Assembly: GCF_038039215.1 (NCBI RefSeq)
Contig: NZ_JBBPCL010000001.1
Location: 1,922,001 to 1,986,000, forward strand
Origin: Pseudonocardia sp. T1-2H
GTDB lineage: Bacteria; Actinomycetota; Actinomycetes; Mycobacteriales; Pseudonocardiaceae
Direction: 5' to 3'
Length of the DNA stretch: 64,000 nucleotides
Below the pieces are notes generated by a model. It was not told the DNA's origin. It saw nothing but the letters and a program-made list of their open reading frames with translations, and searched no databases. This document shows, one piece after another, positions 27,568-42,868 of the stretch. Both the position numbers and the translations under genes were made by a program. Every line of letters starts with the position of its first letter. Positions within the stretch are counted from its first letter, which is position 1.

Positions 27568-28332
27568 ATGGATCTTCAGCTGTCGGGCAAGAACGTTCTG
27601 GTGACCGGGTCGGGCCAAGGCCTCGGCCAGGCGCTGGGGCTGGGCTTCGCCCGTGAGGGCGCGAACGTCGCGTTCCACTACAACTCCTCCGCCGAGGGGG
27701 CCCAGAAGGCGGCCGCCGAGGCCTCCGAGCTGGGCGTCAAGGCGATCGCGGTGGGTGGCGACCTGCGGGACGCGGCCGCCGTCGCGTCCATCGTGGAGCG
27801 CACCGAGACCGAGCTCGGGCCGATCGACGTCCTGGTCAACAACTCCGCGGTCACCAAGAAGCAGCGCTTCCTGGAGTCCACGCCCGAGGACTGGGCGCCG
27901 CAGGTCGACGTCACCGTCACCGGCACCCTGCAGATCACCCACGCCGTCGCGAAGCTGATGGCCGAGCGCAAGTCCGGCTCGATCGTCAACCTGATGGGCG
28001 ACTCGGGCCGGGTCGGCGAGTCCGGCCTGCTGGTCACCGCCACCGCGCGCTCGACGACGGTGGGCCTGACCCGCTCGCTGGCCAAGGAGCTCGCCCGGTT
28101 CGGCATCCGCGCCAACGCCGTGTCCCTCGCCCTGGTGCGCACGGACAACTTCGACGCGCACGCCGGGACGCCCGAGGCGGAGCAGATGAAGAAGATCCTC
28201 GCCCAGTACCCGCTGCGCCGGGTCGGGCACCCGGACGACATCACCCCGATGGTGCTGCTGCTGGCCTCCCCGCTGTCGGCCTGGACCACCGGTCAGGTGG
28301 TCTCGGTCAACGGCGGGTACGCGATGCCATGA
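27568..28332 (+). CDS. short-chain dehydrogenase-fold protein lacking the catalytic Tyr/Lys
   Basis: A 254-residue SDR-fold protein. The nucleotide-binding motif TGSGQGLGQA (about residue 13), DLRDAAAV, NNSAV and the C-terminal GQVVSVNGGYAMP are canonical. At the active site, where classical members have Y-x-x-x-K, this protein reads TATAR: Thr157 and Arg161 replace Tyr and Lys, and the usual Ser position also appears lost. It can probably bind NAD(P), but a normal SDR redox reaction is doubtful. It may be a divergent enzyme subfamily or a structural partner. It is tightly coupled to the CoxL-like gene (ATGA). Confidence 0.88.
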   Translation: MDLQLSGKNVLVTGSGQGLGQALGLGFAREGANVAFHYNSSAEGAQKAAAEASELGVKAIAVGGDLRDAAAVASIVERTETELGPIDVLVNNSAVTKKQRFLESTPEDWAPQVDVTVTGTLQITHAVAKLMAERKSGSIVNLMGDSGRVGESGLLVTATARSTTVGLTRSLAKELARFGIRANAVSLALVRTDNFDAHAGTPEAEQMKKILAQYPLRRVGHPDDITPMVLLLASPLSAWTTGQVVSVNGGYAMP

Positions 28333-30653
28333 GCGGCGACGCGAACGGCACCGGCAGCCTCGGCCGCAGCGTGCGGCGCAAGGAGGACCGCCGCCTCGTC
28401 ACCGGGCACGGGCGCTACGTGACCGACCTGGAGCTGCCGCGGATGCGGCACGTCGCGTTCCTGCGCAGCCCCTACGGGCACGCGCGGATCACCGGCGTGA
28501 ACGTCGCCGCGGCCCGCGAGGCCGGGTACCGGGTCTTCACCGGCGCGGACTTCGCCGACGTGGTGCTGCGCGCGCAGTCCGCGCTGCCGTCCTACGTCGA
28601 GACCGACCAGCCGGTGCTGGCGCACGGGAAGGTCCGCTTCGCGGGGGAGACGGTCGCGGCCGTCGTCGCTGCGGACCGCTACCGCGCGGAGGACGGCCTG
28701 GAGCTCGTCGAGGTCGACTACGAGCCGCTGCCGCCGACGGTCTGCGCGTGGGAGGCCCCGCGCGAGCCCGTCCACGCGGAGGCGCCGGACAACGTGCTGC
28801 TGGAGCGCACGTTCGACGCCGGCTCGGTGGAGGACGCGTTCGCGACCGCCGCGCTCGTCGTCGAGCGGGAGCTGATCACCAACCGGCACGCGGGCAACCC
28901 GATGGAGTGCCGCGCCGGGGTCGCCCTGTGGGACGCCTCGGACCGGAAGCTGACGTTCTGGAACGGCACGCAGGTACCCCACATCGTCCGGAACATGATC
29001 GCCGAGCTGATGGACCTGCCCGAGGGCAACGTCCGCGTGATCGCCCCGGACGTGGGCGGCGGGTTCGGTGTCAAGGCCGTGCTCTACCCGGAGGACGTCG
29101 CGCTGTGCCTGATGGCGCGGGCGATGCCGGGCGTCCCACTCAAGTGGGTGGAGGACCGGGCGGAGCACCTGCTGGCGGCCACCCACGCGCGCGACCACCG
29201 GTACCTGATGAAGGCCGGGTTCGCCGAGGACGGCACGCTGCTCGCCGTCGAGGCGGACGTGAGCTGCAACGTCGGGGCCTACTCGGTCTACCCCTGGACG
29301 GCGGGCATCGAGCCGCTGATGGCGGGCGGGCTGCTGTCCGGGCCCTACCGGCTCGACAACTACCGCTGCACGGTCCGGGGCGTCGCCACCAACACGGCGC
29401 CGTCCGGCCCGTACCGCGGGGTCGCCCGCCCGGCCAGCGTCTTCGCGATGGAGACGGTCCTCGACGACGCCGCCGCGCGGCTGGGCATCTCGGGCGTGGC
29501 CATCCGCCGGAAGAACCTGATCCGCCCCGAGGACATCCCCTACAAGATGCCGTCGCGGCTGGTCGACGACTCCGGCCACTACGACGAGTGCCTGACCAAG
29601 GCCCTCGACGCACTCGGCTACGACGAGTTCCGCGCCGAGCAGGAGCGCCGCCTGGGCACCGACGAACCGCCCATCGGCATCGGGTTCGCCTGCTACAACG
29701 AGCTCACCGGGCTCGGCCGCGCGGCGAGCGCCGGGCCGCGGATGCCGTTCCGCACCGGCCACGACGCGTGCACCGTGCGGATGAACCCGGACGGGCGGGT
29801 CACCGTGTTCTCCGGCGTCACGTCCCAGGGCCAGGGCCTGGAGACGACGATCGCGCAGATCGTCGCGGACGGGATCGGTGTCGCCTACGACGACGTCGAC
29901 GTCCGCATCGGCGACACCGACGAGTCGCTCTGGGGTTTCGGGGCGTTCTCCTCGCGCCAGGCCGTGATCGGCGGCGGTGCCGCGCACCGCACCGCGGAGG
30001 CGGTGAAGGAGAAGGTGCTGCTGCTCGCGGCGGGGCTGCTCGAGGCGAACGTCGCCGACCTGCGCATCGAGGCCGGCCAGATCTCCGTCGTCGGCGAGCT
30101 CAAGCCCCGCATCTCCGTGGCCGAGGTGGCCCGGGTCGCCTACCTGCAGTCCAACCGGCTGCCGGAGGGCATCGAGCCGGGCCTGGAGGCCACGAAGTTC
30201 TACGACCCGATCCGCGGTGCGTTCGCCGCCGGGGCACAGGTCGCCGCGATCGAGGTCGACCGGGTCACCGGCGAGCTGCGGATCCTGAAGTACGTCTGCG
30301 TCGAGGACGCCGGACGGGCGATGCACCCGCAGATCGTCGACGGGCAGATCGCCGGGTCGATCGCGCAGGGTCTCGGCGGCGCGATGTACGAGCACCTCGT
30401 CTACGACGAGGCAGGGAACCTCTCCACGGGGACCCTGCTCGACTACCTGATGCCCACCAGCGCCGAGGTGCCCGACATGGTCATCGGGCATGTCTCGCAG
30501 CCCGCGAACAACCCGCTCGGGGTCCGCGGGGTGGGGGAGGGCGGCACGCTCGGCCCCAACGCCGTGCTGGCCGGCGCGCTGTCCGACGCGCTCGGCATCC
30601 GGATCGACACCCTGCCGATCACCCCGGCGAGCGTCTGGAAGGAGCTGCAGTGA
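28329..30653 (+). CDS. xanthine-oxidase-family molybdopterin subunit (CoxL-like, form II type)
   Basis: A 774-residue large subunit of a molybdenum hydroxylase, which binds the molybdenum-cytosine-dinucleotide cofactor. The active-site loop is SGPYRGVARP (about residue 361), not the CSFR loop of true CO dehydrogenase, so it is not expected to oxidise CO. The catalytic Glu is in GVGEGGT (about 736) and Mo-cofactor contacts lie in PDVGGGFGVKA and GQGLETTIAQI. With the FAD and iron-sulfur subunits later in the operon it would hydroxylate a carbon next to a heteroatom, or a related position, using water. Substrate unknown. Confidence 0.92.
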   Translation: MSGDANGTGSLGRSVRRKEDRRLVTGHGRYVTDLELPRMRHVAFLRSPYGHARITGVNVAAAREAGYRVFTGADFADVVLRAQSALPSYVETDQPVLAHGKVRFAGETVAAVVAADRYRAEDGLELVEVDYEPLPPTVCAWEAPREPVHAEAPDNVLLERTFDAGSVEDAFATAALVVERELITNRHAGNPMECRAGVALWDASDRKLTFWNGTQVPHIVRNMIAELMDLPEGNVRVIAPDVGGGFGVKAVLYPEDVALCLMARAMPGVPLKWVEDRAEHLLAATHARDHRYLMKAGFAEDGTLLAVEADVSCNVGAYSVYPWTAGIEPLMAGGLLSGPYRLDNYRCTVRGVATNTAPSGPYRGVARPASVFAMETVLDDAAARLGISGVAIRRKNLIRPEDIPYKMPSRLVDDSGHYDECLTKALDALGYDEFRAEQERRLGTDEPPIGIGFACYNELTGLGRAASAGPRMPFRTGHDACTVRMNPDGRVTVFSGVTSQGQGLETTIAQIVADGIGVAYDDVDVRIGDTDESLWGFGAFSSRQAVIGGGAAHRTAEAVKEKVLLLAAGLLEANVADLRIEAGQISVVGELKPRISVAEVARVAYLQSNRLPEGIEPGLEATKFYDPIRGAFAAGAQVAAIEVDRVTGELRILKYVCVEDAGRAMHPQIVDGQIAGSIAQGLGGAMYEHLVYDEAGNLSTGTLLDYLMPTSAEVPDMVIGHVSQPANNPLGVRGVGEGGTLGPNAVLAGALSDALGIRIDTLPITPASVWKELQ

Positions 30654-31378
30654 TCGAGACCAGTGCGCACGGCCGCGTCACGGTGATCACCCTCGACCGG
30701 CCGGAGAAGCGCAACGCGCTGAACGTGGCGCTGTGCCACCGGCTCCGTGAGGCCGTCACCGGCGCGGTCGACGGCGGGACCCGGGCGATCGTGCTCACCG
30801 GCGCCGGCACCAGCTTCTGCTCCGGCGCCGACCTCGGCGAGGTCTACACCGCGGACTTCCGCGACGCCCTCTACGCGATGCTGCACGCCGTCACCGACGC
30901 GCCGGTCCCGGTGGTCGCGGCCGTCAACGGGCCGGCGATCGGCGCGGGCACCCAGCTCGCGATCGCCGCGGATCTGCGGGTCGCCGCACCCGGAGCCGTC
31001 TTCGGCGTGCCCACCGCGAAGATCGGCCTGGCGGTGGACCCGTGGACGATCCGACGGCTGGCGTTGCTCGCCGGCAACGGCGTCGCCCGTGCGGTCCTGC
31101 TCGCCTGCGACCAGCTCGACGCCGACGCGGCGCGGAGCTGCGGGCTCGTCGAGCGCACCGGTTCGCTCGACGACGCGATCGAGTGGGCGGGCGGGATGTC
31201 GGCGCTCGCGCCGCTTACCGTCGCCTACTCCAAGCAGGTGCTCAACGAGGTGTTCGAGCCCGAGCTCGACGAGAAGGCGCTCGACACGGCGTTCGAGGCC
31301 TGCTGGGCCAGCGACGACTTCGCCGAGGGCCGCCGCGCCCGCACCGAGAAGCGCCCACCCGTGTTCGAGGGGAGATGA
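30650..31378 (+). CDS. enoyl-CoA hydratase/isomerase family protein
   Basis: A 242-residue crotonase-fold protein. N-terminal VITLDRPEKRNALNVAL, oxyanion-hole segments SGADLGE (about residue 62) and VNGPAIGAGTQLAIAAD (about 89-105) are clear. Glutamates expected for hydratase activity are not all at standard positions, so isomerase, hydrolase or ring-opening activity is possible. It starts at GTG 30650 overlapping the CoxL-like stop, and lies between the large and medium hydroxylase genes, an unusual placement that ties CoA-linked chemistry to the hydroxylase. Confidence 0.9.
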   Translation: MIETSAHGRVTVITLDRPEKRNALNVALCHRLREAVTGAVDGGTRAIVLTGAGTSFCSGADLGEVYTADFRDALYAMLHAVTDAPVPVVAAVNGPAIGAGTQLAIAADLRVAAPGAVFGVPTAKIGLAVDPWTIRRLALLAGNGVARAVLLACDQLDADAARSCGLVERTGSLDDAIEWAGGMSALAPLTVAYSKQVLNEVFEPELDEKALDTAFEACWASDDFAEGRRARTEKRPPVFEGR

Positions 31379-31382
31379 CCCG

Positions 31383-32192
31383 ATGAAGTGCGCCCCGTTC
31401 GACTACGTCCGCGCGAGCAGCGTGGAGGAGGTCGTGAAGACCCTGGCCGAGGCCGACGGCGACGGCAAGATCCTCGCCGGCGGGCAGAGCCTGGTGCCCG
31501 TGTTGGCGCTGCGGATGGCCCGGCCGTCGGTGCTCGTCGACGTGAACCGGATCCCCGGGCTGGGTTCGGTCCGCCCGGTGGACGGCGCCGTCGAGGTCGG
31601 AGCGCTCACCCGCCACAGCAGGCTGGCCGCGCAGACCCACCACCCGCTGCTCGCCGAGACCGCCAAGTGGATCGGACACACCGCGATCCGCACCCGCGGC
31701 ACGGCGGGTGGCAGCATCGCGCACGCCGACCCGGCGGCCGAGCTGCCCGTCGTCGCGGTCGCGACCGGCGCGACGGTGAGCATCGCCGGGTCCGGCGGGG
31801 TCCGCACCGTCACAGCTGACGAGCTGTTCGTGAGCGCGCTGGTCACCTCCCTCGACGACGACGAGATGATCACCGGTATCCGCTTCCCGCAGCCCACCCG
31901 CTGGGGCTTCGCCGAGTTCGCCCGCAGACACGGCGACTTCGCGCTGGTCACGGCCGTGGTCACGGAGATCGACGACGCCGTGCGGATCACCGTCGGCGGC
32001 GTCGGGGCCGTCCCCGTCCGGGCGGAGGCCGGGGAGCGGGTACTCGCCGACGGCGGCACGGCCCGCGAGGCCGCGGCCGCCGCCTCCGCCGAGATCGACC
32101 CCACCGCAGACCTTCACGGGTCGGCGCCGTTCCGCAGGGCGATCGCCGCGGAGATGATCCGCCGCGCCCTCGCGCAAGCGGGAATCCAGTAG
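31383..32192 (+). CDS. FAD-binding subunit of the molybdenum hydroxylase (CoxM-like)
   Basis: A 269-residue CoxM/xanthine-dehydrogenase FAD subunit. FAD motifs are AGGQSLVPVLALR (about residue 32) and TAGGSIAHADPAAE (about 107), matching the AGGQSL and T-x-GG pattern. It moves electrons from the iron-sulfur subunit to an acceptor. It lies four bases after the enoyl-CoA hydratase stop and 12 before the small subunit gene; all three hydroxylase subunits are therefore made in one unit. Confidence 0.93.
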   Translation: MKCAPFDYVRASSVEEVVKTLAEADGDGKILAGGQSLVPVLALRMARPSVLVDVNRIPGLGSVRPVDGAVEVGALTRHSRLAAQTHHPLLAETAKWIGHTAIRTRGTAGGSIAHADPAAELPVVAVATGATVSIAGSGGVRTVTADELFVSALVTSLDDDEMITGIRFPQPTRWGFAEFARRHGDFALVTAVVTEIDDAVRITVGGVGAVPVRAEAGERVLADGGTAREAAAAASAEIDPTADLHGSAPFRRAIAAEMIRRALAQAGIQ

Positions 32193-32204: not shown

Positions 32205-32702
32205 ATGGACGTCACCTTCACCGTCAACGGCGACCGCATGCGGCTCGACGTCGAGCCCCGGCGCACCCTCGCCGACGCGCTCCGCGAGGACTGCGGGCTC
32301 ACCGGCACCCATCTCGGCTGTGAGCACGGGGTGTGCGGCGCCTGCACGGTGCTCGTCGACGGCGAGCCCGCCCGGGCCTGCCTGATGTTCGCCGTGCAGG
32401 CCGACGGGTCGTCGCTCACCACCGTCGAAGGGCTGGAGGGACAGGACAGCGAGCTGCACCCGCTGCAGGAGGCCTTCGTCACCCACCACGGCCTGCAGTG
32501 CGGCTTCTGCACCCCGGGCATGCTGATGAGCGCGCTGCACCTGCTCGACAACGACCCCGAGCCGGGCCGGGAGAAGATCCGCGAGGAGATGTCCGGCAAC
32601 ATCTGCCGGTGCACCGGCTATCAGGGCATCGTCGACGCGATCGAGGCCGCGGGGGAGTCCCTGCGAGAGGTCGACGCGGAGCCGGCCGAGGCCTCCCCGT
32701 AG
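32205..32702 (+). CDS. [2Fe-2S] subunit of the molybdenum hydroxylase (CoxS-like)
   Basis: A 165-residue small subunit with two [2Fe-2S] clusters. The plant-ferredoxin type cluster uses Cys39, Cys44, Cys47 and Cys59; the second uses Cys99, Cys102, Cys134 and Cys136 (CGFCTPGM and NICRCTGY). It carries electrons between the molybdenum centre and FAD. GGAGAGG precedes the ATG. Last gene of the nine-gene operon; an acetyltransferase relic faces it on the other strand. Confidence 0.94.
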   Translation: MDVTFTVNGDRMRLDVEPRRTLADALREDCGLTGTHLGCEHGVCGACTVLVDGEPARACLMFAVQADGSSLTTVEGLEGQDSELHPLQEAFVTHHGLQCGFCTPGMLMSALHLLDNDPEPGREKIREEMSGNICRCTGYQGIVDAIEAAGESLREVDAEPAEASP

Positions 32703-33534
32703 CCGGCCCGGGCGGTCCCTCGGTCACAGCCCTGCTGTCGGGGCGGCCATCCGATCGGTGAAGGCGATTGCGTGCGGTAGTGGTAGCCGCACACCTCGGT
32801 GAAGCCCGTGTTGTCGTACAGGCGGAGTGCCGGGTCGTTGTCGCTCTCGACCTGAAGGTAGATACCGTCCGCTCCTCGGGCGGTCGCCCAGCCGGCCAGC
32901 GATGCCAGGATGCTGCGGGCCGCGCCCCTCCCCGCACCTGGGGGAGGGTCGCCATCCCGAAGACCCCTGCCCAGCCGGCGTCGACCACTGCGCGGCCCAC
33001 CGCAACGACCTCGTCCCCTTCCAGGGCACTGGCGTACGCGCTCGGCCGAGACACCCGGCCGAGCATCTTCCACTCGCGCTCCGGGTCGATGCCACTGCCG
33101 TGGACCGCGTACCAGACGTCGAACCACGCGGTCGTCGGGCTCTCGTCCAGCCGGATCCTCAGCCCGTCCGGCCGTGCCTGCGCCCGGACGTCCGCGGTCG
33201 AGGCGGTCCGCAACGACATAGGGCTGTCCCGGCGGTAGCCGCGCCGTGCGAGGGTTGCGTCGAGGTCGGCGGGGCATGCGCCCGGGCTGACCTGGAACCT
33301 CGTCGTCACCCCGAAACCCGCGTAGAAGCTCTCGGCTGCCGAGATCATGCGCGGCAGGTCGTCCCGACCGGCGTCCCCGTGCGGCAGCACCGTTCCCATC
33401 CACCAGGACGAGCTCGCGGAGTGGCGCAGCCACCAGCCGCCGATGTGCTGGACGTGCTCTGCAGGGAGGGCCCTGGCCACTCTCTCCTGCAGGCCCCGCA
33501 CCGTCTCCGGACTACGGACGGACGACACCGACAC
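32621..33534 (-). pseudogene. GNAT acetyltransferase, frameshifted
   Basis: A GNAT-type N-acetyltransferase split over two minus-strand frames. The N-terminal part (SVRSPETVRGLQERVARALP, HSASSSWWMGTV) and the middle (EGDEVVAVGRAVVDAGWAGV, FGMATLPQVRG) join to GAARSILASLAGWATARGAD and SDNDPALRLYDNTGFTEV only if one base is added to the four-C run at 32930-32933. That restores the acetyl-CoA loop VRGRGAA. GTG 33534 or 33528 is the likely start. The domain ends near 32765 (GYHYRTQ); the open frame running to 32621 overlaps the CoxS-like gene and is probably not native. Confidence 0.78.
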
Positions 33535-33787
33535 CCGCCACCCCCAAACCTTCGATCCTTCGCACACGGAAAGTAGTCCGATAGCACGAGCCGGCCGGTC
33601 GCGACCAACCGCCGGCCTCGCCGTGACGCGGGCATCGGCGCGTTCCCTGTCGATCACCGGGCTCTGTCGGATCCCACAAAAGCGCGCGGGGCCCGTCCGT
33701 TCGCTTCGTGCGCGCGGTGCCTGGCCCGGCGACCGTGGTGCGGGTCACCCTGGGCGGCGATCCCACCCCACCCCTCAAGAGGTGCCC

Positions 33788-35749
33788 GTGCGCGCTACCG
33801 CCCGAACCCGAACACGCACGTCCTGGTCCCGACGCGGCCAGGAGGGCCGCCGGCCCCACCCCGTCGACGAGGTCCTCCCCGCCGGCAAGCTCGCCGTCTA
33901 CGGCGTCCAGCACGTGCTGGCCTTCTACGCGGGTGCGGTCATCGTGCCGATCCTGCTGGCCGGTGCGATCGGGCTGTCCGAGCGCGAGCTCATCCACCTG
34001 ATCAACGCCGACCTGTTCACCTGCGGCATCGCCTCGATCATCCAGTCCGTCGGGTTCTGGAAGGTCGGGGTGCGGCTGCCGCTGCTGCAGGGCGTCACGT
34101 TCACCGCGGTGTCCCCGATGATCGCGATCGGTCTCGCCGCCGGCGGCGGGACGGACGGCCTACTGGTCATCTACGGCGCCGTGATCGTCGCCGGGCTGGT
34201 CACGTTCCTGATCGCCCCGTGGTTCAGCAGGTTGATCCGGTTCTTCCCGCCGGTCGTCACCGGCACGGTGATCACGATCATCGGCCTGGCCCTGCTACCC
34301 GTCGCCGCGCTCGACGCGGTTGGCGGCGGCACCGCCACCGACCCGACGAGCGGGCGGAACCTGGCCTACGCGCTCGGCACCTTGGCCGTCATCGTGGTGA
34401 TCCAGCGGGTCTTCCGCGGGTTCACGGCCACCGTGGCGGTGCTGATCGGCCTGGTCCTGGGGACGGCGGTGGCGTGGACGCTCGGCGACGCGACCTTCTC
34501 CGCCGTCGGCGAGTCGGCCTGGCTGGGGGTGACGACGCCGTTCTACTTCGGCTGGCCCAAGTTCGGCGCGGCCGCGATCGTCTCGATGATCGTGGTCATG
34601 CTGATCACCGCGGTGGAGACCACCGGCGACGTGTTCGCGACCGGCGAGATCGTGGACAAGCGCGTCGGCAAGGAGGACGTCGCCCGCGCCCTGCGCGCCG
34701 ACGGCCTGGCCACCACGATCGGCGGCGTCCTGAACTCCTTCCCGTACACCTGTTTCGCCGAGAACGTCGGCCTGGTCCGGCTGACCCGGGTCAAGAGTCG
34801 GTACGTGGTGGCCGCGGCCGGCGTGTTCATGATCCTCATCGGGCTGGTGCCGAAGGCGGGCGCGGTCGTCGCAGGCATCCCGCACCCGGTGCTCGGAGGT
34901 GCGGCGCTGGCCATGTTCGCGACCGTGGCGGTCGTCGGCTTCCAGACGCTCTCCCGGGTCGACTTCCACGACCACCGCAACGTCGTGATCGTCGGGACCA
35001 GCGTCGGGCTCGCCATGTTCGTGACCGCGCAGCCCGACGTCGCGAAGGCCCTGCCCGGCTGGGCGCAGATCATCTTCGGCTCCGGGATCACCCTGGGCAG
35101 CATCACCGCGATCGTGCTCAACATCGTGTTCCACCACGTGGGCCGGGACTTCGGACCGGCCGTCGCGGGCGCCCCCGGTACACCGACGGTGCGGCTCGAC
35201 CAGGTCAACCGGATGAGCCGGGAGGAGTTCGTCGCCGCCTTCGGACGCCTGTTCCAGGGCCCGACGGACGTGGTCGCCGGGGCGTACGACCGCAAGCCCT
35301 TCGCCGACACCGGGGCGCTGCGGGCCGCGTTCCAGGAGGCCCTGTTCGCCGCGCCCCGCGAGGAGCAGCGCGCGCTGATGGCGGCCTACCCGGACCTCGG
35401 CGGCGACCTCGTGGCCGACGGCGACGCGGGCGAGGACTCCCGCCACGACCAGGCGTCGGCGGGCCTGACCAGGCTCTCCGACGACGACCGCACCGACTTC
35501 GCCGACCTCGCCGCGGCCTACCGCGAGCGGTTCGGGATCCCGCTGATCGTGTGCGTCCGGGACGCCCCGGCGCGCGAGGCGATCCTGCACGAGGGCAGAC
35601 GGCGGCTGGGGAACTCGCCGGCGCAGGAGCACGCTGCCGCACTGATCGAGATCGCGAAGGTGGCCAACCGGCGCTTCGCCGACCTGGTCGCCGAGGCCAA
35701 CCCGATCAGCACCGCGCGTGCGGGCGCGTTCGGGGCGGGGCAGCGGTGA
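33788..35749 (+). CDS. purine permease (NCS2/UraA type) fused to an OHCU-decarboxylase-like domain
   Basis: A 653-residue two-domain protein. Residues about 30-455 are a nucleobase:cation symporter-2 permease with about 13-14 helices (AVYGVQHVLAFYAGAVIVP, VGVRLPLLQGVTF, AVETTGDVFATGE, NSFPYTCFAENVGLV), fitting urate, xanthine or uracil uptake. Residues about 470-645 form an OHCU-decarboxylase (UraD) domain of the longer subfamily (VNRMSREEFVAAFG, ASAGLTRLSDDDRTDFADLA, AYRERFGIPLIVCVRD). The catalytic His is replaced by Tyr534 and the catalytic Glu by Asp554. The frame is continuous with no stop between. GTG 33788 follows AAGAGG. It leads the urate operon. Confidence 0.9.
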   Translation: MRATARTRTRTSWSRRGQEGRRPHPVDEVLPAGKLAVYGVQHVLAFYAGAVIVPILLAGAIGLSERELIHLINADLFTCGIASIIQSVGFWKVGVRLPLLQGVTFTAVSPMIAIGLAAGGGTDGLLVIYGAVIVAGLVTFLIAPWFSRLIRFFPPVVTGTVITIIGLALLPVAALDAVGGGTATDPTSGRNLAYALGTLAVIVVIQRVFRGFTATVAVLIGLVLGTAVAWTLGDATFSAVGESAWLGVTTPFYFGWPKFGAAAIVSMIVVMLITAVETTGDVFATGEIVDKRVGKEDVARALRADGLATTIGGVLNSFPYTCFAENVGLVRLTRVKSRYVVAAAGVFMILIGLVPKAGAVVAGIPHPVLGGAALAMFATVAVVGFQTLSRVDFHDHRNVVIVGTSVGLAMFVTAQPDVAKALPGWAQIIFGSGITLGSITAIVLNIVFHHVGRDFGPAVAGAPGTPTVRLDQVNRMSREEFVAAFGRLFQGPTDVVAGAYDRKPFADTGALRAAFQEALFAAPREEQRALMAAYPDLGGDLVADGDAGEDSRHDQASAGLTRLSDDDRTDFADLAAAYRERFGIPLIVCVRDAPAREAILHEGRRRLGNSPAQEHAAALIEIAKVANRRFADLVAEANPISTARAGAFGAGQR

Positions 35750-36240
35750 CGGGGGTCCCGATCTTCGACGCCCTTCCCGCGGCGGAGGCGGAACGGGAGC
35801 TGCTGGCCTGCTGCTCGGCGCCCCGGTGGGCTCGGGAGGTCGTCGCGGGGCGGCCCTACCGGACCGCGGCGGCGCTGCAGGCCGCGGCGGCCGCCGCCCT
35901 CGCCGACGCCGATCTCGACGCGGCGCTGGAAGGCCACCCGCGGATCGGCGACCGGACCGCCGAGGGGACGGCCCGCCGGGAACAGCGCGGCGTGGCCGAC
36001 GCGCCGGTCGGGGTCCTCGCCGCCCTCGCCGAGGGCAACCGCGCCTACGAGGAACGATTCGGGCACGTCTACCTGGTCTGTGCGAGCGGCCGCAGCGCCG
36101 AGGACCTGCTCGCCACCCTCCGGTCGCGGCTCGGCAACGACCCCGCCGAGGAGCGGGCCGTCGCGCTCGCCGAGCTGGCCGCGATCAACCGGCTGCGGCT
36201 GGGCAGGCTGCTGGACCGGTTGCGGGAGGAGGCGGCATGA
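35746..36240 (+). CDS. OHCU decarboxylase (stand-alone)
   Basis: A 164-residue 2-oxo-4-hydroxy-4-carboxy-5-ureidoimidazoline decarboxylase of the shorter subfamily. It performs the last step from urate to (S)-allantoin. Catalytic His64 lies in GHPRIGDR and Glu79 in RREQRGV; AYEERFGHVYLVCASG is the substrate-pocket strand. N-terminal FDALPAAEAERELLACCSAP matches the subfamily start. GTG 35746 overlaps the fusion-permease stop and its own stop overlaps the next gene, so it is translated in step with both. It is probably the active decarboxylase of the pair. Confidence 0.92.
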   Translation: MTGVPIFDALPAAEAERELLACCSAPRWAREVVAGRPYRTAAALQAAAAAALADADLDAALEGHPRIGDRTAEGTARREQRGVADAPVGVLAALAEGNRAYEERFGHVYLVCASGRSAEDLLATLRSRLGNDPAEERAVALAELAAINRLRLGRLLDRLREEAA

Positions 36241-36548
36241 GCCTCTCGACCCACGTCCTCGACGCCACGTCGGGCGGCCCGGCCGTCGGCGTCCCCGTCG
36301 TGCTGACCAGCGGGGACACCGAGATCGCCCGGGCGATCACCGACGCCGACGGCCGCGCCCGGCTCGGGGAGACGGGCCCCGGCGTCCACACGCTGACCTT
36401 CGCCACCGGCGACTGGTTCGCGGCCACCGGCCGGCAGGGGTTCTACCCCGAGGTGGCCGTGACCTTCACCGTGTTCGACCCCGGGCGTCACCAGCACGTG
36501 CCGCTGCTGCTGTCACCCTTCGCCTACTCGACCTACCGCGGGAGCTGA
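36237..36548 (+). CDS. pucM: 5-hydroxyisourate hydrolase
   Basis: A 103-residue transthyretin-like protein that hydrolyses 5-hydroxyisourate to OHCU. The N-terminal LSTHVLDATSGGPA contains a catalytic His and the C-terminal signature YRGS closes the protein; Arg and His of RHQHVPLLLSPF complete the site. It is cytoplasmic, as there is no signal peptide. It overlaps the decarboxylase gene by four bases and is followed after three bases by urate oxidase, matching the pathway order in reverse. Confidence 0.96.
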   Translation: MSLSTHVLDATSGGPAVGVPVVLTSGDTEIARAITDADGRARLGETGPGVHTLTFATGDWFAATGRQGFYPEVAVTFTVFDPGRHQHVPLLLSPFAYSTYRGS

Positions 36549-36551
36549 GAA

Positions 36552-37397
36552 ATGGGAATCGTGCTGGGGGACAACAGCTACGGGAAGGCGGAGAACCGCG
36601 TCGTGCGGATCTACCGCGACACCCCGCGCCACGAGATCCGCGACGTCACCGTCTCGACGGCGCTGCGCGGGGACTTCTCCGCGGCCCACCTCGAGGGCGA
36701 CCAGGCCCGGGTGCTGCCGACCGACACGCAGAAGAACACCTGCTACGCGTACGCCAAGGAGAAGGGCCTGCGCGAGATCGAGACCTACGCCCTGGACCTG
36801 GGCCGGCACTTCGTCGACGACGTCGAGCCGGTCACGGGTGCGCGGATCGCGGTCGACGAGCACACGTGGGAGCGGGTGCCGGTGGACGGGAGGGGCCACG
36901 ACCACACCTGGGTCCGCCGCGAGTCGGAGATCCGCACGACGGTCGTGGAGGTCGACGCCACGGGTGCGACCGTGGTGTCCGGGCTGAAGGACCTGGTCCT
37001 GCTCAAATCGACCGGCTCGGAGTTCGCCGGGTTCCTGGTCGACGGGTACACCACGCTCGCCGAGACCCACGACCGGATCATGTCGACCTCGCTCGTCGCG
37101 ACCTGGCGCTACACCGGCACCGAGGTGGAATGGGACAAGACCTGGTCCGACGTCCGGCGGATCCTCCTGGAGCGCTTCGCGACCGTGCACTCGCTCGCCC
37201 TGCAGCAGACGCTGTGGGAGATGGGGAAGGCGGTCCTGCAGGCGTATCCGGAGATCGCGGAGGTCTCGCTGTCGGCGCCGAACAAGCACCACTTCGTCGT
37301 CGACCTGAGCCCGTTCGGCCTGGAGAACTCGGGCGAGGTCTTCCACGCCGCCGACCGCCCCTACGGCCTGATCGAGGCCACCGTCACCCGGGACTGA
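36552..37397 (+). CDS. pucL: urate oxidase
   Basis: A 281-residue cofactor-independent urate oxidase that turns urate to 5-hydroxyisourate with oxygen. Family signatures are NSYGKAENRVVRIYR at the N-terminus, VLPTDTQKNTCYAYA (the catalytic Thr in the T-D-T-Q-K-N motif), VLLKSTGSEFAGF, and SLSAPNKHHFVVDL. It closes the four-gene unit with the permease fusion, decarboxylase and hydrolase. An inverted repeat (37420-37485) lies 22 bases after the stop. Confidence 0.97.
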   Translation: MGIVLGDNSYGKAENRVVRIYRDTPRHEIRDVTVSTALRGDFSAAHLEGDQARVLPTDTQKNTCYAYAKEKGLREIETYALDLGRHFVDDVEPVTGARIAVDEHTWERVPVDGRGHDHTWVRRESEIRTTVVEVDATGATVVSGLKDLVLLKSTGSEFAGFLVDGYTTLAETHDRIMSTSLVATWRYTGTEVEWDKTWSDVRRILLERFATVHSLALQQTLWEMGKAVLQAYPEIAEVSLSAPNKHHFVVDLSPFGLENSGEVFHAADRPYGLIEATVTRD

Positions 37398-37419
37398 CAG
37401 CCGCCCCACCGCCCAGAAT

Positions 37420-37485
37420 GTGCATTATGGCCCCATAGCTGCCATTTTCGAGTCGATGCGCGTGTGTTATGGGGCCATAATGCAC
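37420..37485. repeat. inverted repeat A of the TATGG..CCATA family
   Basis: Perfect 18-base arms: GTGCATTATGGCCCCATA at 37420-37437 and its complement at 37468-37485, with a 30-base loop. Each arm itself contains the small palindrome TATGG-NN-CCATA. It is strikingly AT-rich for this DNA. It lies between urate oxidase and the DUF559 gene; related copies are at 38488-38549 and 47831-47892. Confidence 0.9.
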
Positions 37486-37605
37486 TCCGGCGGCGGCCGC
37501 AAGAGGGGCGGTTGATTGTGGACAGCTGCCGGGTGGGTCTGCCGGGTTGTGGACAGATCGGCCTTTCCGCGGATTCGGCGGCGGAGTGCGGCGCAGGATG
37601 CGTCC

Positions 37606-38504
37606 ATGGTCGACCGTACGAGCCCGCAGCTCCGGGAGCATGTGCTCTTCCGCGGGTCCGAGGCCCTCGCGGCGGGAATGGTCAGCCGGCGCGCCCTACG
37701 GAGCGATCGGTTCCGGCGCCTCTTCCGGGACGTCTACACCTGGAGCACGGTCCCGGTCACCCACGAGTTGCGGGCCCGGGCCGCGGCGATGGCCCTTCCC
37801 GGGGAGTGGTGATCACCGGTCGGTCCGCCGCGGCAGTGCGGGGCGCCGCGATCTGCTGGCCGGAGGACCCCGTTCACGTCGCCGTACCGCTCGGCATGCG
37901 GGTGGACCGGCGTACCGGGTTGCTGGTTCGGCGCAGCGATCTGACTCGTGACGAGTTCGCGCCGTGGAAGGCGGGACTGCTCGCCTCACCGTTGCGGATG
38001 TGCCTGGACCTACTGGTCGGGCGCCCTCTACCCGACGCCGTCGCCGACCTCGACCAGGTGCTCAGGCGGCGGTTGGTGGACCGGCAGGCCCTGACCGCGA
38101 TGCTCCGGAACCGGTCGGACAACGGCATCGTGGTCGCCCGGCAGGCGGAGGCCCTCGCGATCGGCTGCTCCGACTCCGTGCCCGAGTCGCAGATGCGGGT
38201 GCACCTCGTCCTCGCCGGTCTGGAGCCGGTCCCCCAACACTGGATCGAGGTCGGCGGCGAGCGGATCGCCCTGGTCGACCTGGCGTTCCCGGAGCGGAAG
38301 CTCGCCGTCGAGTACGACGGCGCGTGGCGGAACAACGAGATGTGGGCGTTGAACCACGACCGCACCCGGTTGAACCAGGTGCAGGCCGCCGGCTGGCGCG
38401 TCGTCTTTGTCACCGCACAATTACTTCGCACCCCCGCAGAAATGACCAACCAAATCCGGTCAGCCCTAGCCGGCCGCCCCGCGACGCGCATTATGGAGCC
38501 ATAA
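37606..38504 (+). pseudogene. AbiEi-like HTH / DUF559 nuclease-fold protein, frameshifted
   Basis: A protein of about 298 residues. The N-terminal part resembles the AbiEi-like winged-helix segment (FRGSEALAAGMVSRRALRSD, RLFRDVYTW) and the C-terminal DUF559 domain has the PD-(D/E)XK/Vsr-like core (ALVDLAFPERKLAVEYDG: Asp, then Glu-x-Asp; then DRTRLNQVQAAGWRVVFVT). The two parts are in different frames; one G added to the four-G run at 37801-37804 gives ALPGGVVITGRSAAAVRGA. The stop TAA lies inside the left arm of inverted repeat B. It sits between two such repeats, inserted in the urate/pucR region. Nuclease activity is unproven. Confidence 0.8.
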
Positions 38505-38556: not shown

Positions 38557-40095
38557 TCAGCGGGAGCGGAGGGCGAGGAAGACGTCGACGCGGTCGGCGG
38601 AGGCGCCCAGGTCCCGGCCCGTCAGCTCCTCCACCCGGCCGATCCGGTACCGCACGGTGTTGACGTGCAGGTGCAGCCGCTCGGCCGTCCGGCTCCACGA
38701 CCCCGAGCAGTCCAGGAACGCCTCGAGCGTCTCCAGCAGCCCGGCATCGTTGCGCTCGTCGTAGGCGAGCACCGGGCGCAGCACGCGCTCGGCGAAGGTC
38801 CGCCGCACGTCGTCCGGCACCATCGCGAGCAGCGCGACGTGCGAGGTCACCTCCGCCGCTGTGACGACGTGCAGCGACCCCGGCCGCCGCTCGGCCAGCG
38901 TCCGCGCGTGCGTGGCCTCGTGCAGGGCCCCCGTCAGCGCCGCGAGCGCGGCGGGCCTGCTCACCCCCACCGTCAGCCGGTCGCCCGAGCGGCCCGGCTC
39001 CCCGATCCCGGGCCTCAGCCGGCCCAGCGCCGCGTCGAGCACCGCCGTGTCGCCGGGGACCAGCGCCACCGCCAGCCCCTCGTGGGTCCCGACGACCGGT
39101 GGCCCGAGGTGCGCGGCCGCGTCGACCAGCACGGAGCGCGCCGTCTCCGCCCGGCCCGGCCCGGTGAACCCCGCGACCGCGACGGCGAGCGGGTGCGCCG
39201 GGTCCAGGCCCGCCTGCCGCAGCCGGACCGGCAGCTCCGGGCGCTCGCCCGCCCCCTCCGCGACCAGCGCGATCGCGTCGTCGGCGATGTCCCGCGCGAC
39301 CCGCAGGCCCTCGCTGCGCCGGGCCCGGTCCAGGGCCGCGACCGCCACCAGCTCCCCGACGGTCTCGGTCGTCTCCTGGTCCCACTCCGGCCGCGCCCCG
39401 TCGACCACGACGAACCACGACGTCGGGCGCAGCTCGGACGCCGGGCCGACCGGGAACACCGACCGCACCGGCCCCGGACCCGGCACCACCGCGGGCAGCC
39501 GCTCGGCGGTCAGGAACGCCGCGACCACCCGGTCGATCTCGCTCTCCGGCAACGGTTCCGGGCCGGCCGCCAGCGCCCGGCCGGTGGCCGTGAAGACCCG
39601 GCACGTCAGCCCGATCGCGGCGCCGACCTGGGCCGTCACCGCGTCGAGCCCCATCCCGCCGGCGACGGCGGCGAGCAACTGCCGCTGCCGGCCGACCGTG
39701 ACCGCGAGCCGGTCCCCGCGCGCCGCGGTCACCGACCCGACGACGAACTCGGTGACGGCGGCGAAGGACACCTCCTCCGGCACCGCGACCAGCGGGACGC
39801 CGTGCCGCCGGCAGGCCTGAACGACGTCGTCCGGGATGCCGTGGAAGACCGCGGCCCCGGCGGCCAGCGCCGCCACCCCGGCCTTCGCGAGCGCGCCGAC
39901 GAAGCGCTCGGTGTCCGCCTCCGACGTCCGCCACACCAGGCCGCTGATCACCAGCTCGCCCCCGGAGAGGTAGCGGCCGGGGTCGATCAGGTCGGTCGTG
40001 TACACCCAACGCACCGGGCGGTCGAGCGCGGCCTCGTCCCCGTGGAGCATCCGGAGCCCGAGGTCGGCGCGCCCGACCAGGTCCCGCAGCAGCAT
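38557..40095 (-). CDS. pucR: PucR family purine-catabolism regulator
   Basis: A 512-residue transcription regulator. The N-terminal PucR/PurC-like domain (about residues 1-125, DLVGRADLGLRMLHGD and WVYTTDLIDPGRYLSGGELV) probably senses a purine degradation product such as allantoin; a GGDEF-like middle part follows; the C-terminal PucR helix-turn-helix (about 455-500) contains LHLHVNTVRYRIGRVEELTG. ATG 40095 is the first start with homology and has no Shine-Dalgarno site, so it may be leaderless. It is divergent from the xanthine dehydrogenase operon across 93 bases and convergent with the DUF559 gene. It likely activates the island. Confidence 0.93.
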   Translation of the reverse strand: MLLRDLVGRADLGLRMLHGDEAALDRPVRWVYTTDLIDPGRYLSGGELVISGLVWRTSEADTERFVGALAKAGVAALAAGAAVFHGIPDDVVQACRRHGVPLVAVPEEVSFAAVTEFVVGSVTAARGDRLAVTVGRQRQLLAAVAGGMGLDAVTAQVGAAIGLTCRVFTATGRALAAGPEPLPESEIDRVVAAFLTAERLPAVVPGPGPVRSVFPVGPASELRPTSWFVVVDGARPEWDQETTETVGELVAVAALDRARRSEGLRVARDIADDAIALVAEGAGERPELPVRLRQAGLDPAHPLAVAVAGFTGPGRAETARSVLVDAAAHLGPPVVGTHEGLAVALVPGDTAVLDAALGRLRPGIGEPGRSGDRLTVGVSRPAALAALTGALHEATHARTLAERRPGSLHVVTAAEVTSHVALLAMVPDDVRRTFAERVLRPVLAYDERNDAGLLETLEAFLDCSGSWSRTAERLHLHVNTVRYRIGRVEELTGRDLGASADRVDVFLALRSR

Positions 40096-40188: not shown

Positions 40189-41070
40189 ATGGACTTCCTG
40201 GCGCCGACCTCCTGGGCAGAGGCCCTCGAGACCAAGGCCGCGCACCCCGACGCCCTGCCCGTGGCGGGCGGCACGGACGTCATGGTCGAGCTCAACTTCG
40301 ACCACCGCCGCCCCGCCGCCCTGCTGGACCTGAACCGGGTCCCCGAGCTGCGCGACTGGTCCCTGGCCGAGGGCCGGATCCGGCTGGGCGCGGGCGTCAC
40401 CTACGCCCGCGTGATCACCGAGCTGGGCGCGACGCTGCCGGGCCTGGCGATGGCCGCCCGTACCGTCGGCTCCCCGCAGATCCGCAACCGCGGCACGGTC
40501 GGCGGCAACCTCGGCGCAGCCTCGCCCGCCGGCGACAGCCACCCCGCGCTGCTGGCCGCGTTCGCCGACGTGGAGATCGCGTCGGTGCGCGGGACGCGGG
40601 TCGTACCCGTCGCAGACTTCTTCACCGGGGTCAAGCGCTCCGTGCTCGAGCCCGACGAGCTGATCGCGGCCGTGCTGGTCACCCCGCCCGCGGGCCCGCA
40701 GCAGTTCAGCAAGATCGGCACCCGCAACGCCATGGTGATCGCGGTGTCCGCCTTCGGGTTCGCGCTGCACCCGCACCGGCGGGCCGTCGGCACCGGGATC
40801 GGGTCCGCCGCCCCCACGCCCCGGCCCGCCCCCGAGGCCGCGGAGTTCCTGGCCGGCGAGCTCGAGGCCGCCGGGCTGTGGGACTCCCGCGGCCCGCTGC
40901 CCGAGGGCCTGGCAGGAGAGTTCGGCCGCCGCGTGCGCGACGCCGCGGCCCCCATCGACGACGTGCGCGGCAGCGCCGCGTACCGCCTGCACGCCCTGTC
41001 GGTGATGGCGCGCCGCACCGCCACCTGGGCGTGGGACCAGTACCGCACCGACATCAGGAGCACCGCGTGA
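40189..41070 (+). CDS. xanthine dehydrogenase FAD-binding subunit
   Basis: A 293-residue FAD subunit of a xanthine-dehydrogenase-type enzyme. FAD motifs: VAGGTDVMVELNF (about residue 25) and NRGTVGGNLGAASPAGD (about 103). It passes electrons to NAD or another acceptor. The ATG at 40189 has no clear Shine-Dalgarno, like the divergent pucR, suggesting leaderless transcripts from the shared 93-base promoter region. The stop overlaps the iron-sulfur subunit start. Confidence 0.93.
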   Translation: MDFLAPTSWAEALETKAAHPDALPVAGGTDVMVELNFDHRRPAALLDLNRVPELRDWSLAEGRIRLGAGVTYARVITELGATLPGLAMAARTVGSPQIRNRGTVGGNLGAASPAGDSHPALLAAFADVEIASVRGTRVVPVADFFTGVKRSVLEPDELIAAVLVTPPAGPQQFSKIGTRNAMVIAVSAFGFALHPHRRAVGTGIGSAAPTPRPAPEAAEFLAGELEAAGLWDSRGPLPEGLAGEFGRRVRDAAAPIDDVRGSAAYRLHALSVMARRTATWAWDQYRTDIRSTA

Positions 41071-41531
41071 GGATCGAGCTGACGGTCAACGGCACCCGCC
41101 GCGAGGCCGACGACGTCTGGGAGGGCGAGAGCCTGCTGTACGCGCTGCGCGAGCGGCTCGGCCTGCCCGGCTCCAAGAACGCCTGCGAGCAGGGCGAGTG
41201 CGGCTCCTGCACCGTCTACCTCGACGGGCTGCCCGTGTGCTCCTGTCTGGTCGCGGCCGGCCAGGCGCAGGGCCGCGAGGTCACCACCGTGGAGGGCCTG
41301 GGCGGGGCCGAGCTGGACCCGGTCCAGCAGGCGTTCGTCTCCAACGGTGCGGTGCAGTGCGGCTTCTGCACCCCGGGCTTCCTGGTGAGCACGCACGACC
41401 TGCTGGAGCGCAACCCCGCGCCGTCCGACCCGGAGATCCGGGAGGCGCTGGCCGGGAACCTCTGCCGCTGCACCGGCTACGAGAAGATCCTGGACGCCGT
41501 CCGGGCGGCCGCCGCGGAGCGTGCGTCGTGA
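41067..41531 (+). CDS. xanthine dehydrogenase [2Fe-2S] subunit
   Basis: A 154-residue small subunit with cysteine set Cys40, Cys45, Cys48, Cys60 for one [2Fe-2S] cluster and Cys98, Cys101, Cys133, Cys135 for the other ([16 protein letters not shown]). GTG 41067 overlaps the preceding stop and its own end overlaps the deaminase start. It shares the family with the CoxS-like gene at 32.2 kb but is a distinct paralogue serving purine oxidation. Confidence 0.95.
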
Positions 41532-42868
41532 TCATCGAGGGCGCCCACGTCGTCACCGTGACCGGCGAGGAGTACCCCGACGGGCACGTCGTGGTCGAGG
41601 GCAACCGCATCACCGCGGTCGGCGCCGGGCCCGCCCCGGCCCGCGACGGTCACGAGGTCGTCGACGCCCGCGGGTGCCTGCTCACCCCCGGCTTCGTCAA
41701 CACGCACAACCACCTCTACCAGTGGGTCACCCGCGGGCTCGCGGTCGACGCGACGCTCTTCGAGTGGCTCACCACGCTGTATCCGGTGTGGGCGGGCATC
41801 GACGAGCACGCGGTCCACACCGGGGCGAGCGGCGCGCTCGCTCGGCTGGCGCTGACCGGCTGCACCACCAGCACCGACCACCACTACGTGTTCCCCCGTG
41901 AGGGCGGCGACGTGTTCGCCGCGGAGATCCGCGCCGCGCAGGAGGTCGGGCTGCGGTTCCACCCCTGCCGCGGGTCGATGGACCTGGGTCGCAAGGACGG
42001 CGGGCTGCCGCCCGACCACGTCGTCGAGGACCGCGAGGCCGTCCTGCTGGCGTCGGAGGCCGCGATCGACCGCTGGCACGACCCGTCGCCGGAGGCGATG
42101 CTGCAGGTCGCGCTGGCCCCGTGCTCGCCCTTCTCGGTGACCGGCGACCTCATGCGCGAGTCGGCCGAGCTGGCCCGCCGCCGGGGCGTACGGCTGCACA
42201 CCCACCTCGCCGAGACCCTCGACGAGGAGGACTTCTGTCGGGAGCGGTTCGGCTGCTCCCCGCTGGACTACGTGGAGGGGCTCGGCTGGACCGGCGCCGA
42301 CGTCTGGTTCGCCCACTCCGTCCACCTCGACGACCCGGCCGTGAAGCGGGTCGGCGCGACCCGGACCGGGGTGGCGCACTGCCCGTCGTCGAACGCACGG
42401 CTCGGGGCCGGCATCGCCCGCACCCGGGACCTGCGCGACGCCGGCGCCCGCGTCGGCCTCGGCGTCGACGGCGCCGCGAGCAACGAGGCCGGGAGCCTGC
42501 TGGAGGAGGTGCGGCACGCGGTGCTCTTCGCCCGCGCCGTCGGCGGGCCCACCGCACTGACCGTCCGCGACGGGCTGGAGCTGGCCACGATGGGCGGCGC
42601 CCGGGTGCTCGGCCGCGAGACCGACCTGGGCTCGATCGAGGTGGGCAAGCTGGCCGACCTCGCCGTCTGGCGGCTCGACGGGCTCGGCCACGCCGACGTC
42701 GCCGACCCGGTGGCGGCGCTGGTCCTGGGCTCGCCACCGCCGCTGGACCTGCTGCTCGTGAACGGGCGCCCGGTCGTCGAGCACGACCGCGTCGTCAGCG
42801 TCGACACGGATTCGATCGCGCGCGAGTGTGCCCGCGTCCACCGCACCCTGCTGGAGAAGGCGTCATGA
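41528..42868 (+). CDS. 8-oxoguanine deaminase-like amidohydrolase
   Basis: A 446-residue amidohydrolase of the TrzA/AtzB/8-oxoguanine deaminase group. Metal and catalytic residues: NTHNHLYQW (about residue 58), HTHLAETLDEE, a His in WFAHSVHLDD and Asp in GVDGAASNEAG. Members with the HTHLAETLDEE and GVDGAASNE motifs deaminate 8-oxoguanine or isocytosine; a purine substrate fits its place between xanthine dehydrogenase subunit genes. It would feed oxidised or ordinary purine bases toward urate. GTG 41528 overlaps the previous stop. Exact substrate unproven. Confidence 0.87.
   Translation: MIIEGAHVVTVTGEEYPDGHVVVEGNRITAVGAGPAPARDGHEVVDARGCLLTPGFVNTHNHLYQWVTRGLAVDATLFEWLTTLYPVWAGIDEHAVHTGASGALARLALTGCTTSTDHHYVFPREGGDVFAAEIRAAQEVGLRFHPCRGSMDLGRKDGGLPPDHVVEDREAVLLASEAAIDRWHDPSPEAMLQVALAPCSPFSVTGDLMRESAELARRRGVRLHTHLAETLDEEDFCRERFGCSPLDYVEGLGWTGADVWFAHSVHLDDPAVKRVGATRTGVAHCPSSNARLGAGIARTRDLRDAGARVGLGVDGAASNEAGSLLEEVRHAVLFARAVGGPTALTVRDGLELATMGGARVLGRETDLGSIEVGKLADLAVWRLDGLGHADVADPVAALVLGSPPPLDLLLVNGRPVVEHDRVVSVDTDSIARECARVHRTLLEKAS

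Follow-up and report, generated by a model that had tools for sequence, protein, structure and literature searches.

NCS2 (NAT) carriers are homodimers with cytoplasmic C-termini, and to our knowledge the known permeases of the PbuX/PucJ/PucK/UacT group (PF00860, TIGR03173) end past the membrane part. The OHCU decarboxylase UraD (PF09349; TIGR03164; zebrafish 2o70, Agrobacterium Atu2327) has a catalytic histidine and a catalytic glutamate, which we take, from structural papers of 2007-2010, to be the essential His67 and Glu87 of the zebrafish enzyme. The consulted part of PMC5445154 describes zebrafish Urad as a homodimer with (S)-allantoin in its active site as an inhibitor, and the homodimeric state of NCS2 carriers agrees with the title of one work cited in PMC6070649. 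UraD also occurs fused to enzymes of its own pathway. In plants it is joined to HIU hydrolase (PMC3646786 and PMC2834698, both consulted in part). In PuuE the partner is allantoinase, and the UraD domain keeps its His and Glu. A membrane transporter with a C-terminal soluble domain is known from SLC26 proteins, whose membrane fold is related to that of NCS2 permeases by Foldseek and which carry a cytosolic STAS domain; this comparison concerns the way of working only. The STAS domain of SLC26 is not known to descend from any enzyme that acts in the pathway of the transported substrate.

The present study concerns a gene of Pseudonocardia sp. T1-2H located in a window of 64,000 nucleotides, the whole stretch of DNA that was analysed. 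Its product resembles the PbuX/PucJ/PucK/UacT group by a whole permease part, a UraA/UapA-like model and the setting in a urate operon, but it continues into a UraD-like tail. The tail shares the fold, the length and many invariant residues with UraD; unlike the enzymes, it has replacements at both catalytic positions and a transporter attached. As in PuuE and the plant proteins, UraD is fused to a partner of the same pathway, whereas the partner here is a transporter and not an enzyme. This fusion of a purine transporter of soil actinobacteria with a putative pseudoenzyme is real, conserved and little described, although the architecture itself is already present in databases.

No description of a permease-UraD fusion was found in the consulted parts of PMC4562309, PMC4617892, PMC3646786, PMC4991794, PMC4016543 and PMC6362181, and the literature searched for this architecture yielded no paper on such a fusion by title. 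Chains with both PF00860 and PF09349 stand in databases as OHCU decarboxylase, uric acid transporter or solute carrier family 23 protein, the first of these names being probably wrong. Because several sources use it, pathway reconstructions may take the fused domain for an enzyme, though a separate UraD is present in nearly every genome checked.

Architecture of the fused gene

The frame is open from a GTG at 33788 to a TGA at 35747-35749. This GTG, preceded by AAGAGG, is the sole start codon within codons 1-40. Residues 34-417 match PF00860 (348.8 bits) and residues 474-630 match PF09349 (138.9 bits), which bears out the view of the first-pass annotation that a single frame, here of 653 residues, holds an NCS2 permease and a whole UraD-like domain. 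The annotation had also considered a stop or frame change between the two parts; the frame 33788-35749 is unbroken. Against NCBIfam, the permease part scores 516.8 bits with TIGR03173 pbuX (cut-off 414.15; model positions 1-407 of 407), and the tail scores 116 bits with the OHCU decarboxylase model TIGR03164 (cut-off 96). The features are listed in Table 1.

Table 1. Features of the fused gene and of the adjoining purine genes (positions in the window)
Feature	Position	Strand	Basis
Fused gene, NCS2 permease and UraD-like tail, 653 aa	33788..35749	+	Open frame, Pfam, NCBIfam
Permease part, residues 38-449, TIGR03173 pbuX	33899..35134	+	NCBIfam, UraA-like model
Linker with GPAVAG motif, residues 450-473	35135..35206	+	Motif count, model confidence
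UraD-like domain, residues 474-630, PF09349, TIGR03164 type	35207..35677	+	Pfam, NCBIfam, structure match
Tyr534 at the UraD histidine position (zebrafish His67)	35387..35389	+	Alignment; fits Cys66 of PMC5445154 (consulted part)
Asp554 at the UraD glutamate position (zebrafish Glu87)	35447..35449	+	Alignment
ANPI motif, conserved, 3' of the domain, residues 637-640	35696..35707	+	Motif count
Separate UraD, TIGR03180 type, His and Glu present	35746..36240	+	Pfam, NCBIfam, alignment
5-Hydroxyisourate hydrolase (HIUase)	36237..36548	+	Pfam, NCBIfam
Urate oxidase (uricase)	36552..37397	+	Pfam, NCBIfam
PucR-type purine catabolism regulator	38557..40095	-	Profile match

An AlphaFold model of the protein, built on 41 fused sequences, has a mean pLDDT of 79.2 and a pTM of 0.64, with low confidence around residues 451-470; as this pTM is modest, the model is no guide to the relative placement of permease and tail. 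The modelled permease part matches UraA (8omz, TM 0.83 by target, Foldseek) and is UapA-like too, and the modelled tail is all-helical and superposes on zebrafish OHCU decarboxylase 2o70 (TM 0.89 by target, 2.2 Å). None of the solved chains listed spans both parts. Judging from the permease family and the operon setting, this NCS2 (NAT) purine permease most likely carries urate or xanthine, a type of assignment on which PMC6070649, in the part consulted, warns that NCS2 substrates cannot be deduced from sequence.

Three motifs recur in the fused proteins. The permease motif ENVGLVRLTR/G, searched for as a simple pattern, is present in 71 of 81 loci; the GPAVAG linker and the ANPI tail motif are present in 65 and 73 of 81 fused frames, respectively, and characterise the majority of the close members. 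ANPI is missing in the distant fused copies examined, with the exception of L166 and L167, and in all 130 rows of separate UraDs, which are a weak control, being trimmed a few residues past the domain.

The fused gene comes first in an operon and is followed by a separate UraD, HIUase and uricase. It overlaps the separate UraD by 4 bases (GTGA), the UraD and HIUase genes overlap by ATGA, and the uricase starts 3 bases past the HIUase stop. Even with the fused tail left aside, the operon thus encodes every enzyme needed to convert urate to allantoin. The earlier claim that the gene heads an operon with the remaining urate enzymes stands as to its leading position; the set behind it, however, is already complete, UraD included. 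The two UraD-fold proteins belong to different subfamilies: the tail falls into TIGR03164, with Agrobacterium Atu2327 and the zebrafish enzyme as nearest solved relatives, and the separate UraD into TIGR03180, with those of Klebsiella and Arabidopsis. These two are the only PF09349 domains of the genome, so its two further PF00860 permeases are not UraD fusions.

Replacement of the catalytic residues

The tail has Tyr534 in place of the H-P-D/R-L/I histidine and Asp554 in place of the S-x-x-E-Q glutamate. The Tyr534 column aligns to zebrafish position 67, consistent with Cys66 named in the consulted part of PMC5445154. Among 325 distinct fused domains, His is absent from the histidine column, which has Tyr in 318 and Phe in 7, and the glutamate column contains 315 Asp, 7 Glu, 1 Arg, 1 Gly and 1 His. 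The separate UraDs, 123 of them distinct, retain the histidine in 120 cases; of the other three, one is split across frames (L020), one is partial (L155) and one is diverged, with Glu in this place (L170). "Distinct" refers to distinct aligned domain sequences, many of them from close relatives, drawn from 349 fused, 130 separate and 120 PuuE-type rows. The 325 include P0315, an oxidoreductase-like start with a permease tail that is possibly misassembled; P0320, which has only the last stretch of the permease, was excluded here and included in the tree.

A loss of histidine peculiar to the window was ruled out by its absence from every one of these fused domains. An explanation by which every fusion of UraD would entail this loss was ruled out as well: in the mostly PuuE-type (allantoinase-UraD) set, His is kept in 113 of 113 distinct domains and both residues in 120 of 120 rows, and fusion as such therefore does not cost the residues. 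The lists of fused proteins comprised 120 of 571 matches and, for a search from L168, 120 of 544; in the latter, a permease match was present in 119, of which 116 carry Tyr and 3 carry Phe. A chimeric query for a His-bearing permease fusion gave no PF00860 among the 120 of 6103 matches listed, nearly all of which were PF01522-UraD (PuuE-type), so that this result has little weight either way. Judging from these residues, the tail very likely does not decarboxylate OHCU by the known mechanism.

L170 comes from a genome of the group f5 g8, and no permease is joined to its UraD, in which Glu replaces the histidine. Nine other genomes of this group (G023, G107, G128, G161, G182, G193, G334, G352 and G369) have an extra weak PF09349 match in two stretches, and the group may possess another type of altered UraD.

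Distribution and origin

In each of the 80 loci kept, the best among 164 relatives, both matches share one open frame. The absence from all relatives for which the first-pass annotation had allowed thus did not occur, and the other PF00860 and PF09349 chains that it proposed to seek were found in many Actinomycetota. A frameshift or assembly artefact was ruled out by the shared frame in all these loci and in many protein clusters. Two of the 80 loci are irregular, the permease start lying in a different frame in L020 and the domain breaking off in L069.

The fused domains form one clade of 34 sequences (SH-aLRT 99) in a tree calculated with the two catalytic columns removed. In this quick tree, the clade is nested among actinobacterial UraDs with the HPD/ELA motif, the nesting branches having support of 83-90; the TIGR03164-type separate rows were chosen by the motif HPDLA/HPELA and not by the profile model. 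The fused tail domain has a single origin.

Fused genes were found in Pseudonocardia, the window's nearest named relatives, and in Actinomycetospora, Geodermatophilus, Kribbella, Nocardioides, Mycolicibacterium, Rhodococcus, Intrasporangium and others, and they reach genomes that share only the phylum, Actinomycetota, with the window. In a phylum sample, PF09349 was present in 72 of 396 genomes, and the fusion was verified in at least 11 of the 72, the window's own genome being extra. In the window's family, PF09349 was present in 102 of 120 genomes and the fusion was verified in at least 11, the window included (10 among the places fetched). These verified counts cover the places fetched only, which in the phylum sample were picked by long frames. 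The fusion is widespread across the phylum yet patchy.

In the distant fused members L158-L161 and L165, an insertion of about 25 residues lies between Tyr-Pro and the S-x-x-D/E loop. In L033, L062 and L080, and also in L009 and L010, the fused gene is preceded within a few kb by another gene for an NCS2-type permease, which hints at a division of labour.

Selection and co-occurrence with ordinary UraD

The dN/dS ratios (Nei-Gojobori) of 13 pairs show the tail to be under purifying selection, with values of 0.06-0.25; those of the permease are 0.02-0.16 and those of the separate UraD 0.07-0.45. The values are indicative, since the genomes are rich in GC and some pairs come close to saturation. 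Compared with the separate UraD, the tail has the lower ratio in 10 pairs and the higher one in 3, and its faster evolution in these three counts against a module in the service of the transporter. Tyr111, Phe115, Arg138, Glu146 and Arg161 are invariant in 34 of 34 diverse fused rows, in which the histidine column has 28 Tyr and 6 Phe and the glutamate column 29 Asp. On the pocket side, Gln88 is kept in 20 and Asn108 in 13 of the 34, and such drift among the more remote fused proteins makes binding of the same ligand less plausible. The fold is retained, the catalytic pair has given way to a nearly fixed new pair, and part of the old site is drifting in distant members.

An ordinary UraD accompanies the fused gene almost throughout. 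It lies near it, at up to about 6 kb within the stretch fetched, in 37 of 80 loci. For the other 43 loci, 41 genomes were searched, and a further PF09349 gene was found in all 41, at up to 16 kb in 22 of them, at 25-158 kb in 3 and on a different contig in 16. Separate copies read from each of the 41 have His and Glu in 42 of 43 rows, the remaining row being partial. In the phylum and family samples, too, no genome in which the fusion was verified lacks a further PF09349 match. A second UraD was thus found in every fusion genome checked, with one exception: in the metagenome assembly of L070, the fused domain is the lone UraD found, and a uricase was not detectable.

Possible role of the tail domain

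The first-pass annotation had suggested substrate channelling or sensing of a pathway intermediate at the point of import. Channelling through decarboxylation is not supported, given the absence of His in 325 of 325 fused domains and the adjoining separate UraD with His and Glu; since, in addition, a second UraD is encoded nearly everywhere, catalytic channelling is unlikely. A working decarboxylase in which Tyr and Asp replace His and Glu, coupling uptake to the last step of the pathway, would be in keeping with the retained UraD fold and several invariant residues, with the TIGR03164 score above the cut-off and with the lone UraD of L070; the latter two, and the conservative exchange of Glu for Asp, tell against a pseudoenzyme. 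This explanation is nonetheless quite improbable, given that no fused domain has His and that the 41 further genomes all encode a separate UraD with His and Glu. Phe in 7 natural members argues against Tyr as a new acid/base, and OHCU is formed two enzyme steps past import, so the transporter does not pass its own substrate to the tail. Decay of a passenger without function is hardly credible. The patchy occurrence in the window's family (at least 11 verified fusions in 120 genomes, against UraD in 102) and the erosion of L072, L188 and L189 around the S-x-x-E-Q loop would agree with it; the low dN/dS of the tail and the retention of a domain of single origin in numerous genera and far-apart groups of Actinomycetota would not.

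Because the key residues are lost and the domain is nevertheless kept by evolution, regulation or organisation of the transporter is more likely than chemistry, and it is rather probable that the tail is a non-catalytic module in the service of the transporter. By analogy with STAS on SLC26, its best reading is that of a regulatory, sensing or dimer-organising module, the balance between ligand-responsive regulation and pure scaffolding being about even. Tentatively, the altered UraD pocket may be a built-in sensor that binds a compound of the urate pathway and gates the uptake of urate or xanthine. In a single event early in Actinomycetota, an NCS2 nucleobase transporter would have acquired an enzyme from further down its own pathway, leaving the decarboxylation of OHCU to the separate UraD encoded alongside. 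The tail would sit on the cytoplasmic end of the permease, the C-terminus being presumably cytoplasmic from NCS2 topology, and the UraD-fold tails would pair beside the permease dimer and alter transport, a change perhaps triggered by the binding of OHCU, (S)-allantoin or urate. Such sensing would fit a conserved domain deprived of its catalytic residues. No feedback device of the sensor type on an NCS2 transporter was found in the literature searched for the permease-UraD architecture. If the tail does sense such a compound, it would clearly exemplify the conversion of an enzyme into a regulator of the very transporter that feeds its pathway and would provide a soluble handle on the control of NCS2 carriers.

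The main rivals of sensing are dimer support and docking. A structural clamp that only stabilises the permease, without a ligand, would suit the homodimeric NCS2 carriers. UraD is likewise homodimeric according to the consulted part of PMC5445154, and the partial drift of pocket residues in distant members would be expected of such a clamp; the near fixation of Tyr in the histidine column (318 of 325) goes beyond the needs of a free position, however, and makes a mere clamp rather doubtful. Docking, whereby the tail would keep UraD, HIUase or uricase at the membrane beside the importer, seems a little less probable still. All three enzymes are encoded in the operon, and the linker and the ANPI motif are conserved outside the fold. 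Yet the adjoining UraD is of another subfamily (TIGR03180 versus TIGR03164), so mixed UraD pairs are not obvious, and the separate UraD lies on a different contig in 16 of 41 genomes and at 25-158 kb in 3.

Purine neighbourhood of the window

Similar gene neighbourhoods have been described. In Rubrobacter xylanophilus, the uracil/xanthine permease Rxyl_2840 adjoins OHCU decarboxylase, CMP/dCMP deaminase, uricase and HIU hydrolase (PMC4016543, consulted in part), and in M. smegmatis, msmeg_1293 to msmeg_1296 (permease, OHCU decarboxylase, transthyretin, uricase) are induced under nitrogen limitation (PMC4617892, consulted in part).

Beyond the operon, the window encodes the PucR-type regulator, two xanthine-dehydrogenase-like subunits, an 8-oxoguanine deaminase and a PucD-type subunit. 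The xanthine-dehydrogenase-type subunits flank the deaminase (40189-41531, 41507-42868 and 42865-45144; NF006055, 666 bits versus 532), and the PucD-type subunit of this set scores barely above the cut-off. Together, the purine genes form an island leading from 8-oxoguanine to allantoin. A search for an RNA regulator in 32600-37600 gave a sub-threshold match only (25 bits versus 42.5). The gene 3' of the uricase (37464-38504) has a sub-threshold match to the restriction-endonuclease-like PF18741 only (21.1 bits versus 38.2). On the other side of the fused gene, a molybdenum-hydroxylase set comprises large, FAD and iron-sulphur subunits (28329-30653, 31386-32192 and 32205-32702), the large and iron-sulphur subunits being below every NCBIfam cut-off, and includes an enoyl-CoA hydratase-like gene at 30653-31378.
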